This document shows positions 1,592 to 6,574 of a stretch of DNA of 6,707 bases, one piece after another. The notes beneath the pieces are model-generated. The model saw only the letters and a list, made by a program, of their open reading frames with translations, did not search any database and was not told the origin of the DNA. Numbering within the stretch: the stretch's first letter is position 1; every line of letters starts with the position of its first letter. The stretch comes from Chloroflexota bacterium (GTDB lineage Bacteria > Chloroflexota > Anaerolineae > J102). The stretch spans positions 1 to 6,707 of the forward strand of contig PIVW01000324.1 in the NCBI GenBank assembly GCA_003353825.1. The letters run 5' to 3'. A program made the translations under genes and the position numbers.

Positions 1592-3742
1592 GTGCCCCTA
1601 CAACCTGAACAAAGCATCCTCAACGGCAAATACCCCATCCTCAGCCTGATTGGCGAGGGGGGGATGGCGCGTGTGTGGCTGGCCGAGGAACCGGGATTCG
1701 GCCGTCGCCAGGTGGCGATCAAGGAGCCGAAAGGTGGGATTATCTCCGCTGATCGGGATGAGATATTAAAGCGTTACGAGCGAGAGATCGAGGTGGGGGC
1801 GGCGCTGCGCAAGGCGAAGGCCCCCAATGTGGTGGAGGCGATTACGGCCGAGCCCTATGAGGACACCCGCCTGTTGGTGCTGGAATATATGCCGGGTGGC
1901 GATCTGGCTAAACTGATTAAGCAACACCCCAAGGGCCTGCCCATCGATCTGGCGGTCTCAATCACTCAGGACTTGCTCAAGGCCCTGGCTGCCGTCCACG
2001 CCCACACCCTGGATATCGTCCATTGCGACATCAAGCCCTCCAACATCCTCTTCGACGCCAAGCCTTTGCAAGGGGGCCGGGCGCATCTGGCTGATTTTGG
2101 CCTGGCGCAGGTGGCGAGGACCAGTCAGGATTTGACGAAAATGTTGGGGAGTGGCTTTGGCACACCTGCATACACCGCCCCTGAACTGGCACAGGGCATA
2201 ACTTATATGACGCCGGCTACCGATATCTACGCGCTGGGCTGTGTGCTGTTTGAGATGCTAACCGGACAGAAGTACAAGCGCTACGAGCCGGGCACGAGAG
2301 CGAGCAGTTTGCGGGCCGACGTGCCTGACTGGCTGGACGATCTGGTCGCTCGAGCGCTGCCTGAGAACCAGTGGGAGCGGTGGCAGAGTAGTGAAGATAT
2401 GAAACGGGCGTTACAGGCGGGAGCAACAGGTGGTGATGGACAGAAAATGGACACTACCACCCCTCCCCTCCCCGCACAAAAAAAGAACAGGCGATGGGCT
2501 ATCATCATCGCCCTCTTGTTATTGGGCTTCACAGGTGGGGCATGGATTGTGAATACAGTGTTGCGAGCAGCAGAGCCGGAAGTCATCTCCACAACTCCGA
2601 CACGAGATGACTCATCACTTCTGAAACCAACCGACACGCTTATTTCACCGACCACTACACCTGTAGCGCCAACCGCTACTCCGATTCCTACCACCGACAC
2701 ACCTTTGCCGCCAACGAAGACGCCAATCCCGCCTACAGATACGCCTGTTCCTGCAACCGGTACTGCGATTCCGCCAACTAGCACAGCAGTACCTCCTACA
2801 AAAACGCCAATCCCCGCCACCAATACACCAGTTCCACCAACAAACACACCGATCCCCGCCACCAATACACCAGTACCTCCAACTAACACACCAATTCCAC
2901 CATCTCCCACATCAACCCTCGGCATCGGCTCCTCTATGGTTTCCGACAGAGACAGCATGGAATTGGTGTACGTACCGGCAGGCGAATTCCTTATGGGCAG
3001 TATCGAAGGCGTAGGCGAAGATGATGAGCACCCTCAACACACCGTATACCTGGATGCTTATTGGATCGATAAGACTGAAGTAAACAACAGCCAATTTGCG
3101 CAGTTTGTAGATGATACCGGTTACGAAACGACAGCCGAGCAAGAGGGATGCGGATACATAAACGATGGGGAAGAATGGTCGTGTGTAGAAGGAGCTGACT
3201 GGCAACATGTGACCGGATCAGGTAGCGATCTGCAAGAATTGGAGGACCATCCTGTGGTTCTGGTGAGTTGGTATGATGCAGAAGCCTATTGCGAATGGGC
3301 AGACCGACGTTTGCCAACAGAAGCGGAATGGGAGAAAGCGGCGCGAGGGAGGGATGGGCAAGTATATCCCTGGGGAGATGAGTTCGAAGGGACACGGCTC
3401 AACTATTGTGATACGAATTGTGTGTTTTCATGGAAGGATGAAAACAGTGATGATCGCTACGGAGTCACGGCTTCTGTGGGGAGCTATCCGACCGGAGCCA
3501 GCCCCTATGGAGCGCTAGACATGGCAGGTAACGTGTGGGAATGGGTGGCCGATTGGTATGATGGCGATTACTATGGATCGTCACCTGAGCGTAATCCATC
3601 CGGTCCAGAAACCGGCCAATACCGCGTGCTGCGGGGCGGCTCGTGGTTCGACTATCAGAACGGCGTGCGCTCCGCCGACCGGTACCACTTCACCCCCGGG
3701 GCTCGTCACAACGGCCTCGGTATTCGTTGCGCCCTCTCGTAG
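1592..3742 (+). CDS. Transmembrane Ser/Thr protein kinase with extracytoplasmic FGE-sulfatase (SUMF1-type) domain
   Basis: This is a receptor-like Hanks-type kinase of 716 residues. The kinase domain spans about 14-272: glycine loop GEGGMARV (21-28), VAIK lysine 44, helix-C glutamate probably E65, catalytic loop HCDIKPSN (144-151, D146 and N151), DFG 168-170, GTPAYTAPE 190-198 and D211. All residues needed for ATP binding and phosphotransfer are present, but the usual HRD arginine is cysteine. One hydrophobic helix (about 302-324) follows a KKNRR stop signal, so the kinase should be cytoplasmic. A Thr/Pro stalk (about 330-445) leads to an FGE-sulfatase domain (about 456-716) with [25 protein letters not shown] (559-569), [20 protein letters not shown] (646-652), RGGSW and a terminal GIRCA. 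The paired active-site cysteines of true formylglycine-generating enzymes, which lie soon after GGSW, are absent (682-700), so this domain is more likely a binding or sensing module. The GTG start is the only in-frame choice after the stop at 1556 and has no clear Shine-Dalgarno sequence. The substrate is unknown. Confidence 0.93.
2615..2925 (+). repeat. Thr/Pro-rich stalk coding repeat, with a 42-bp tandem unit
   Basis: This segment, inside the kinase gene, encodes repeats of the form (N/D/K)TP(I/V)PPT, about seven residues (21 bases) each. The clearest higher-order unit is 42 bases: copies at 2811-2852 and 2853-2894 share their first 22 bases exactly and differ at four positions overall, each encoding two stalk repeats. 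The protein would be extended, possibly O-glycosylated, and would hold the FGE domain away from the membrane or through the wall. Tandem repetition makes the length prone to slippage between strains. Confidence 0.8.
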
Positions 3743-3793
3743 CTTTGCTGAAATGCTGGCTTCTGGTCTTCTGAGATTCTGACCCGGGGGATT

Positions 3794-3830
3794 CCAAAGG
3801 GGGACACCCCCTTTGGTCGCCGGAGGCGAC
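3794..3830. repeat. Two adjacent perfect hairpins between convergent genes
   Basis: CCAAAGGGGG (3794-3803) and CCCCCTTTGG (3807-3816) form a perfect 10-bp stem with an ACA loop. Sharing its last G, GTCGCC (3816-3821) and GGCGAC (3825-3830) form a perfect 6-bp stem with a GGA loop. A run of eight A follows at 3832-3839. On the plus strand no T run follows the stems, and on the minus strand the T run precedes them, so neither orientation is a textbook intrinsic terminator. They may still slow or end transcription from both convergent genes or protect the 3' ends. The layout also fits a dispersed REP-like palindromic element, which this single window cannot show. Confidence 0.6.
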
Positions 3831-3898: not shown

Positions 3899-6574
3899 CT
3901 ACACTTTTTCTCCGCAATTCTCACAGAACTCACTTGGCGAGGTCAACGTTGCTTCACAATTAGGGCAGGTGCCTCGCTGAGAACGCCTGATCTCGACCGC
4001 CTCCTCGTCGCTCTGAATCCGCACTTGCCGCTGTTCCCCCCGCATGATGATCACGCCATCGCCGGTGACGGTGGGGCCGTAGTAATGCTGGTGGACCTCA
4101 GGCGGCCGGGATACAGATAATGTGATCGTGAGGATGACGGGAAGCTGGGGCGTGCAGGCGCGGTCCTGGTACTGCAAGGTCAGGTCAAGCTCGGCCGAAC
4201 CGGAGGCGGTGGGGGTTATGGGGATATCGAGCAGGCGGTGGGCGTGAGGGCTTAGCGTACCCAGTGGCATGTCACCGGCCTTTTTGACGTGGCCCGTGTA
4301 GGTGAGGACGGTATCTCGGGCCAGGTGCTCGGTCTGGTTCCGTACTAAAATCTGCACGGCGTCCGCCTTTCCCTCGGTTAGTTCGGGCCGGTTACCCTGA
4401 CCCAATGTCAGCAGCGGCGCCTTGCGGGCATTGGCGTCCTGCAAACGGCAGGACAACGCCCGTTCTACATTACCCAGCATGCGCCACTGCTCAGCCGCCG
4501 CTGCCCACCATACCGCGGCTTTTTCAGGCTTGTTGTCTCGACGGCTGGCTAACCTTTCGTAATTACTTGCTGCTTTTTCATACCAGTTGAGATTGGCAGC
4601 CAGCTTGGCCACCACATCCAGTCTGCCTGCCTTTTCGGCAGCATCCAAAGCAGCGTCGGCCATATCCGCCTGCAGCCACAGCGTCGCCGCCTCCCACCAG
4701 CGTTTCGCTTTCTCCATGCGGCGGGCAGCCTTGGGGTATTGGGTCAGGCACCAGCGGATGGCATTGAGGTTGCCTTTACTGTCCACCACAAAAAGATGCC
4801 CATCCTCGGTCAGGGCCGGCGTCACGGTGATGGGGGCGCCGCTGGGATAGACCCAAAAGGCGCCGCCCTCTTCCGTATCCAGGGCGTGGAGATAGTGGTC
4901 GTTGGAGCCTACGAAGATCCAATCACCCCAGGCCAGTGGCGATGTGGCAATGGGGCCGCGGGTGGTGTAAGGTTCGCCCACACGATCACCGGACGCAGCG
5001 TCCAGGCGGTAGACGTTGCCATCACCGGCGCCGGCGTAGATGTGATCGTGGTGAATGAGGGGCTGGCCGACCACAGGGCTATCCAGGCGGGTCGACCAGC
5101 GCTGGCGGCCGCTGTAGTCCAGCGCCCGCACTTGCCCATACAGATCGCCGACCACCACCTGCTGTCGGGATTCGTCCACCTGGGCCGGGCCCAGGATACG
5201 GCCGCCATCGTCAAATATCTGGTGGACATGACCTGAATGTAGATCGAGCAGATAGAATCGGCCCCGGCGGTCACCCACGAACACATGGTTGCGGATAGAG
5301 ACCGGTTTGGCGCGGATGCCCCACTTGCTCACCTGCCAGCGTTGCTGTACCCGGCCGCTGTTTGCATCGACCGCCACCAGTTGGCCGGCATGTTCGCGCA
5401 GATCGCGCGCATCCACGTCCAGGCTCAGGATCAGAGCGCCGTTGTACACCAGAGGGGCGCTGCTGAGTTTGCCGCCCAGGTCGAGGCGCTGTTTGAGGGC
5501 GCCGGTCTCGGGATGAATCGTATAGAGAACACCGTCGTGGCCGGGGACCCAGAGCAAACCTTCGGCCAGGGCCATGCCATCGCCAGGCGCGGTCGCCAGT
5601 TTAAGGGGGTGGGTCCAGGCTGGTTGGCCGCAGCTTCGATCAAAGGCATGGACCCGACCTGCGCGGCTGGCGACATAGACTCGTTCGCCATCGCACAACG
5701 GCGCTGTGTGCACGGCTTCGCCCAGTTGCTCACGCCACAGTTCCGGCCGCATGATGGAGGGGGCGGAGTGGCTGAGCGATTCCGCCCAATCGGCAAGCCC
5801 GGCCTGCTTCTGCCGCTGTGTGGCCTGTATGCGCTGTTCGGCCGCGGCTTCACGCTCGCTGAGGCCGGCCATCTTCTCTTTGTGCTCGACCAGATCTTGT
5901 TTGAGGGGCACATGGTCCTGCAATACGGCCAGCACCTGTTCATCCAGCAGGTGGCGCCCGCGCGCCTCGGACTCGGCCAGGGACGCTTGCAGATAGAGCG
6001 TTTCCTTCTGTTGCCGTACCTCATCCATCACGGTACAGCGCAGGTCGTAGGCATCGACGCCCAGCACTGCCAGGCCGGACCGTCCCAACAAGTCGGCATC
6101 GTCGCTTAGCCCGTGCGCGATGGCTGTGCCCAACCAGTCTCGTAAATCCGACTTTTTGTCCAGCTCGGCCAGTGAGAAGCGTTTGAAGAGCGCTTGCAGG
6201 CTGGTGCGGATCGTGCCGGCCAGCAGTATGGCCAGATACTCCTCGCTCAGTTCCTGCCGATCCCTGACCACGTCCACCACAAGGCGCACCGGATCTTGTA
6301 CGCGCAATGCCAGGTTTGCGGTCAGGTCCAGGCGCGCGCCTTCCTTGCTGTGCATGTCGTCGACATCAAAGGTGAGGCGGATATCCTGGTTGGGGAAGAG
6401 GATGGCTTCGATACGTTTCTTTTTTTGCAGGGTTCTGCTCTGCCAGGGATCGGGTGTGATCTCGCCTGGGCCTTGTACGGGTTCTTTCGTGGCGATGCTG
6501 CCGTCGATGAGGATAACGGCTGTACCGCCCGGTGGGATGGTGGTGGGGAGTGGTATACGATGGGTGAGTGGCAT
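3899..6574 (-). CDS. SPFH/band-7-like, beta-propeller, helical repeat and zinc-ribbon mosaic protein
   Basis: The product has 891 residues if it starts at ATG 6574. The next upstream ATG (6622) would add 16 residues, and neither has a clear Shine-Dalgarno sequence; I prefer 6574 because the recognisable domain begins just after it. An SPFH/band-7-like domain covers about 11-200: the IPPGGTAVILIDG strand, LTANLALRVQDPVRLV, a helical segment, GLAVLGVDAYDLRCTV, then EVRQQKETLYLQASLAESEA. A coiled coil follows (about 190-255). A PQQ/WD-like propeller of about eight blades covers 285-608, with blade ends such as AVDANSGRVQQRW, ALDYSGRQRW and RLDAASGD. A Trp/Ala-rich helical-repeat region (about 612-712), an Ig-like beta-sandwich (about 735-822) and a zinc ribbon CPNC...CENC (870-887) complete it. 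No signal peptide or membrane helix is seen, so it is probably cytoplasmic. SPFH proteins form oligomeric membrane-associated scaffolds; propellers and solenoids bind partners. No catalytic domain is visible. It converges on the kinase gene. Confidence 0.85.
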   Translation of the reverse strand: MPLTHRIPLPTTIPPGGTAVILIDGSIATKEPVQGPGEITPDPWQSRTLQKKKRIEAILFPNQDIRLTFDVDDMHSKEGARLDLTANLALRVQDPVRLVVDVVRDRQELSEEYLAILLAGTIRTSLQALFKRFSLAELDKKSDLRDWLGTAIAHGLSDDADLLGRSGLAVLGVDAYDLRCTVMDEVRQQKETLYLQASLAESEARGRHLLDEQVLAVLQDHVPLKQDLVEHKEKMAGLSEREAAAEQRIQATQRQKQAGLADWAESLSHSAPSIMRPELWREQLGEAVHTAPLCDGERVYVASRAGRVHAFDRSCGQPAWTHPLKLATAPGDGMALAEGLLWVPGHDGVLYTIHPETGALKQRLDLGGKLSSAPLVYNGALILSLDVDARDLREHAGQLVAVDANSGRVQQRWQVSKWGIRAKPVSIRNHVFVGDRRGRFYLLDLHSGHVHQIFDDGGRILGPAQVDESRQQVVVGDLYGQVRALDYSGRQRWSTRLDSPVVGQPLIHHDHIYAGAGDGNVYRLDAASGDRVGEPYTTRGPIATSPLAWGDWIFVGSNDHYLHALDTEEGGAFWVYPSGAPITVTPALTEDGHLFVVDSKGNLNAIRWCLTQYPKAARRMEKAKRWWEAATLWLQADMADAALDAAEKAGRLDVVAKLAANLNWYEKAASNYERLASRRDNKPEKAAVWWAAAAEQWRMLGNVERALSCRLQDANARKAPLLTLGQGNRPELTEGKADAVQILVRNQTEHLARDTVLTYTGHVKKAGDMPLGTLSPHAHRLLDIPITPTASGSAELDLTLQYQDRACTPQLPVILTITLSVSRPPEVHQHYYGPTVTGDGVIIMRGEQRQVRIQSDEEAVEIRRSQRGTCPNCEATLTSPSEFCENCGEKV

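Follow-up and report, generated by a model that had tools for sequence, protein, structure and literature searches.

The window considered in this study comprises positions 1 to 6,707 of contig PIVW01000324.1 from a Chloroflexota bacterium. The gene in question occupies positions 3899..6574 of the minus strand and encodes a protein of 891 amino acids (P0001), in which an SPFH domain, a coil, a propeller, a solenoid, an immunoglobulin-like (Ig) domain, a tail and a zinc ribbon follow each other. We refer to it as the scaffold protein, after the role proposed below. It is convergent with a gene on the plus strand (1592..3742) encoding a Ser/Thr kinase that ends in an FGE domain. The original prediction, made for the open reading frame (ORF) of the scaffold protein, described a fusion of five module types, and both the domain calls and their order are borne out by Pfam and by a full-length AlphaFold2 model. 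This model was built with 24 aligned relatives and has a mean pLDDT (predicted local distance difference test score) of 82.3.

The SPFH/Band 7 domain covers residues 1–180 (6035..6574, minus strand, as are all coordinates of this protein). Pfam Band_7 scores 26.5 bits against a cut-off of 23.6, and all 50 structural matches listed by Foldseek for residues 1–277 are chains of the SPFH family or of vaults. The SPFH core superposes tightly in VIA alignments, and in a separate model of the SPFH part a helix (residues 178–268) directly follows the domain. A chance match to SPFH was considered and rejected on the basis of the separate model, Foldseek and VIA; SPFH-likeness of residues 1–200, on which the original prediction hinged, is thereby upheld. 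In the models, residues 181–268 (5771..6034) form a long helix or helical coil of low to middling pLDDT. The next domain is a PQQ/BamB-like propeller (residues 276–608, 4751..5749), with 115 bits for PQQ_2. A fold search against solved structures characterizes it as eight-bladed and BamB-like, and in searches with the whole model the propeller alone appears among the matches listed. The model further contains a seven-helix TPR-like solenoid (residues 613–717, 4424..4738) and an Ig-like sandwich (residues 722–822, 4109..4411). They are followed by a tail conserved in the alignment around HYYGP..GDGVII and modeled with low pLDDT (residues 826–863, 3986..4099). The zinc ribbon with its CxxC pairs (residues 870–888, 3911..3967) is seen in the alignment, while Pfam zinc ribbons match it below threshold.

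The SPFH domain begins at the very N terminus. The hydropathy maximum over the first 60 residues is 1.01, with no hydrophobic stretch, and neither hydropathy nor the model indicates a lipoprotein signal or an N-terminal membrane hairpin or anchor. No stretch of the membrane-helix type occurs in any of the 24 aligned rows, where the maximum is 1.59 versus 2.21 in the neighboring kinase. By its sequence the scaffold protein is predicted to be soluble and free of membrane helices, in agreement with the initial claim that both signal and membrane helix are absent.

Relatives were searched for with the SPFH-propeller part as a query twice and with the C-terminal part once, a capped set of about 8000 candidates being scored each time. 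The comparison set consists of P0001 and 25 relatives; P0027, a match of 380 residues, was left out. Identity to P0001 ranges from 38 to 87% over alignment A1; for P0043 and P0044 it is 56% and 42%. Pfam recognizes Band_7 in 13 of the 24 family members, and the SPFH-propeller fusion is kept in 23 of 24 alignment rows. The predicted C-terminal zinc ribbon is present in P0001 but optional in the family, where 17 of the 26 proteins compared carry it, a point that had been overlooked. Among the nine proteins lacking it, a change of frame interrupts P0002, and P0015 stops after the propeller. All 13 proteins found with the C-terminal query also carry propeller domains, so the C-terminal part was not seen without a propeller. 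One relative (P0018, 1167 amino acids) has SPFH domains at both ends, with two Band_7 stretches and the ends aligning at E = 5.9e-8; a second, C-terminal SPFH domain fits the scaffold logic. The ratio of nonsynonymous to synonymous substitution rates of the scaffold gene is 0.222 over 765 codons, that is, the gene is under purifying selection. Given this selection and the membership in a small family, the fusion is not an artefact. Scanning viral sequences with the family profile produced 22 pattern matches but no relative, and none of 51 plasmid records spanned 80% of the protein. A single-protein scan of genome contigs, whose reach is close relatives, yielded one locus, further referred to as L001, with a scaffold gene 91.5% alike to that of the window. 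The similarity of the two genes stops 18 bases ahead of the start codon. In L001, TTCACCATT-like short tandem repeats lie at about 3990–4100, just upstream of the scaffold gene, and the window retains a remnant of them, CACCATTCACC, before the scaffold start codon.

The propeller could also be taken as the mark of a BamB-like envelope protein that acquired its N-terminal part by accidental fusion. BamB models are indeed the top NCBIfam matches to P0001, and some relatives carry the name BamB in their source records. However, the score of 147 bits is far from the BamB cut-off of 285.2, for which reason a BamB orthologue was rejected; moreover, the protein has no signal and carries a zinc ribbon, and a spurious fusion was rejected given the 23 fused rows out of 24 and the purifying selection. 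We consider this explanation extremely improbable. The AfsK model likewise scores under its cut-off (55.5 bits). BamB, AfsK-type kinases and other PQQ_2 propellers share the eight-bladed propeller with the scaffold protein, which falls below the cut-offs and has other partner domains.

Our preferred reading, to which we assign a probability of roughly 60%, is that the scaffold protein is a soluble cytoplasmic SPFH ring or cage displaying propellers. The SPFH domain would oligomerize together with the long helix that follows it, since this combination forms rings and cages in relatives of solved structure. Each subunit would hold out the propeller, the solenoid and the Ig-like domain as client-binding surfaces, with docking as a possible role of the tail and the zinc ribbon. 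As the protein has no membrane anchor of its own, a partner would bring it to the membrane, as has been reported for the soluble SPFH protein YdjI. The rings and cages of HflK/C, prohibitin, flotillin, stomatin and erlin share the SPFH fold and long helix with the scaffold protein; they are membrane-anchored. Unlike it, none of the SPFH ring or cage chains among the structural matches listed has a propeller. Several observations weigh against this reading. Coil blocks over residues 181–270 have pLDDT of 45–68 in the full-length model, and because of this low confidence the model does not fix the placement of the propeller relative to the ring; the predicted template modeling score (pTM) of the whole model is 0.56. 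Whole-chain VIA alignments have a root-mean-square deviation of 8.5–19 Å, as the orientation of the helix differs, although the SPFH core alone aligns tightly. Finally, solved relatives of PQQ-type propellers among the matches listed are mostly envelope proteins.

In the accessible text of two papers (PMC9239133, PMC11237479), YdjI of Bacillus subtilis is a soluble protein of the pspA operon with an SPFH domain and a zinc ribbon, recruited to the membrane by a partner. It resembles the scaffold protein in having an SPFH domain, a coil and a C-terminal zinc ribbon but no membrane helix, and in its location in the cytoplasm, which is predicted for the scaffold protein. In contrast, YdjI is PspA-linked and has no propeller, solenoid or Ig domain, all three of which lie between SPFH and zinc ribbon in the scaffold protein. 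The nearest match in kind are the archaeal Meth_adaptin and Halo_adaptin ESCRT systems, which, as far as the available part of their description goes (PMC10936438), include an SPFH protein with a coiled coil and a zinc ribbon as well as proteins with PQQ-like propellers and Ig domains. The same modules thus occur in one system, but there they are split over several archaeal proteins and accompanied by Vps4 and ESCRT genes, whereas here they form one bacterial protein.

These parallels allow for another role, that of an adaptor in membrane stress or membrane traffic, as in YdjI/PspA or the adaptin-type ESCRT systems. The solenoid and the Ig domain were compared with known families by sequence alone. 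The solenoid matches alpha-SNAP (E = 0.018) and the MIT domain of VPS4 (E = 0.08) in PDB sequences, and in Pfam SNAP (6 of 13 slices) and the TPR regions of IFT140/IFT172 (2 of 13; best E = 0.00044). The Ig slices match Transglut_C (10 of 13, best E = 3.9e-5), CARDB (5 of 13) and TRAPPC13_C (2 of 13), again weakly. The similarities hint at trafficking-type modules, and the appearance of SPFH, zinc ribbon, PQQ-like propeller and Ig domains as separate proteins of one archaeal adaptin system agrees with them. Nevertheless, all matches of this type are weak, the best being those with E of 0.018 in PDB and 0.00044 in Pfam, and the genes identified in L001 and in the window, each stretch being shorter than 7 kb, include no pspA or ESCRT gene. 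An adaptor of this sort appears rather unlikely.

A single protein with the full domain order was not found in open-licence papers, Pfam, NCBIfam or PADLOC, in line with the original prediction, which regarded the arrangement as unusual. A described defence protein was rejected as well: PADLOC gave no families for the scaffold protein, and its matches to the neighboring kinase concern the kinase domain. Hence the scaffold protein is a real, conserved and so far undescribed SPFH fusion, while SPFH with zinc ribbon is already known. SPFH proteins organize membranes and proteases, but the basis of their binding to specific clients is not yet understood. In this family, putative client-binding modules are fused directly to the SPFH subunit, which would make client binding testable in a soluble protein.

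The neighboring gene (1592..3742, plus strand, GTG start) encodes 716 amino acids comprising a Ser/Thr kinase (Pkinase, 129.7 bits) with the motifs K, HxD and DFG, a predicted membrane helix (residues 302–320, 2495..2551, hydropathy 2.21), a Pro/Thr-rich linker and a domain of the FGE/C-type-lectin fold (FGE-sulfatase, 249.2 bits). Its final 112 bases before the stop region (3624..3735), which end the FGE domain, match a template in L001. The window sequence differs from the template at 21 positions, 19 of which are template adenines, with adenine at 31 of the 112 template bases (hypergeometric P = 1.6e-11). The variable region of the kinase-FGE gene of L001 itself shows 18 of 19 differences at template adenines, and a third variable region (L017, 602–712) from the same bin, 15 of 16. 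The kinase-FGE gene of the window is therefore a true target of a diversity-generating retroelement (DGR), which the original prediction had missed. Together, the membrane helix and the Pro/Thr-rich linker of the window kinase would place the diversified domain on the extracellular side.

The template, reverse transcriptase and Avd were seen in L001 rather than in the window. The gene order of L001 is kinase-FGE, reverse transcriptase, Avd, template and SPFH-propeller gene, with a complete DGR core of reverse transcriptase, Avd and template repeat at 2036–3782. The reverse transcriptase scores 72.9 bits with RVT_1 and has the motif IGNLTSQ, which we take to be a DGR mark; Avd scores 99.2 bits with NF033474 (cut-off 80). 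The anchor pattern of the variable region occurs in three places in the L001 bin and nowhere in the reversed control. In this one bin, covered by the PF22296 and PF03781 searches, 15 stretches are FGE genes. Two further Avd loci of this bin (L014 and L015) each have FGE genes and a reverse transcriptase nearby, which suggests that several DGRs operate in the organism. The variable region of L017 sits in an FGE gene followed by what by eye looks like an FtsK-type ATPase gene. In both the window and L001 an inverted repeat follows the variable region at a short distance; in the window it lies 58 bases after it (3794..3816, plus strand) and was identified by sequence folding. Retrohoming of phage BPP-1 requires a hairpin after the variable region, according to the portion of PMC3240598 available. 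The repeat in the window may correspond to such a hairpin at the DGR target site, or it may be a terminator separating the two convergent genes.

As regards the neighbor gene only, kinases with a C-terminal C-type-lectin (CLec) variable domain are known DGR targets in cyanobacteria; their sequences are different, and the accessible part of that description (PMC7517822) does not mention an SPFH-propeller partner. FGE domains in DGR-linked conflict systems have also been described, as far as can be judged from parts of PMC7159879 and PMC10907252; the term SPFH occurs in the text of the former in the reference list only.

The adjacency of the two genes permits an extension compatible with the soluble ring or cage, in which the scaffold protein is the intracellular hub of diversified kinases. 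The C-type-lectin tip of the membrane kinase would bind a foreign ligand, and the kinase would act on or through the SPFH-propeller ring. At both loci seen, the window and L001, the scaffold gene adjoins a kinase-FGE gene whose variable region belongs to the same template lineage, so that two of the three variable-region loci have the scaffold gene as neighbor. Further, the DGR genes and template of L001 are placed between kinase and scaffold gene, and the window kinase retains its motifs and has a membrane helix. On the other hand, the two loci are close relatives, hydropathy shows no membrane helix in the kinase of L001, and the third of the variable regions matching this template lies next to a different gene. 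The abundance of FGE genes in the L001 bin also speaks against a specific link. The orientation of the genes differs between the loci, and they do not share an operon, given that they are convergent in the window and that template and scaffold gene of L001 lie 324 bases apart, with a strong inverted repeat in between. A functional link between the scaffold protein and the diversified kinase is thus possible, being suggested by two related loci, and we put forward the hub only tentatively. If true, the link would reveal the intracellular destination of the signal from a DGR-made receptor, which for kinase-type DGR targets is not given in the parts of the sources consulted.

Still further, membrane kinases with retroelement-scrambled lectin tips might signal into the cytoplasmic SPFH cage as a self-diversifying receptor system. 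We regard this as quite unlikely. If it were so, the cage would show coat-protein-like arms of propeller, solenoid and Ig domain, and recognition of new ligands (phage, neighbors) would be wired to one scaffold, comparable to an inflammasome or a receptor-clustering raft.

The bin containing L001 is titled Halieaceae. Family-level matches among the 18 genomes around this bin are confined to the bin itself; the remaining 17 give propeller-only matches (best E from 2.2e-17 to 1.5e-7). The other named source of the family, that of P0010, is Anaerolineae, and a plasmid record from Candidatus Chlorohelix, presumably of the phylum Chloroflexota, spans most of the window kinase. For these reasons L001 is probably a Chloroflexota contig misplaced in a Halieaceae bin.

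An Rfam scan of the window found nothing. At 960–1298 of the window there is a strand-rich ORF with no Pfam family over the cut-off, which may be what remains of the end of a disrupted surface protein. Positions 1–240 hold, on the minus strand, a gene fragment that by eye resembles what we take to be the end of an M16-type peptidase.
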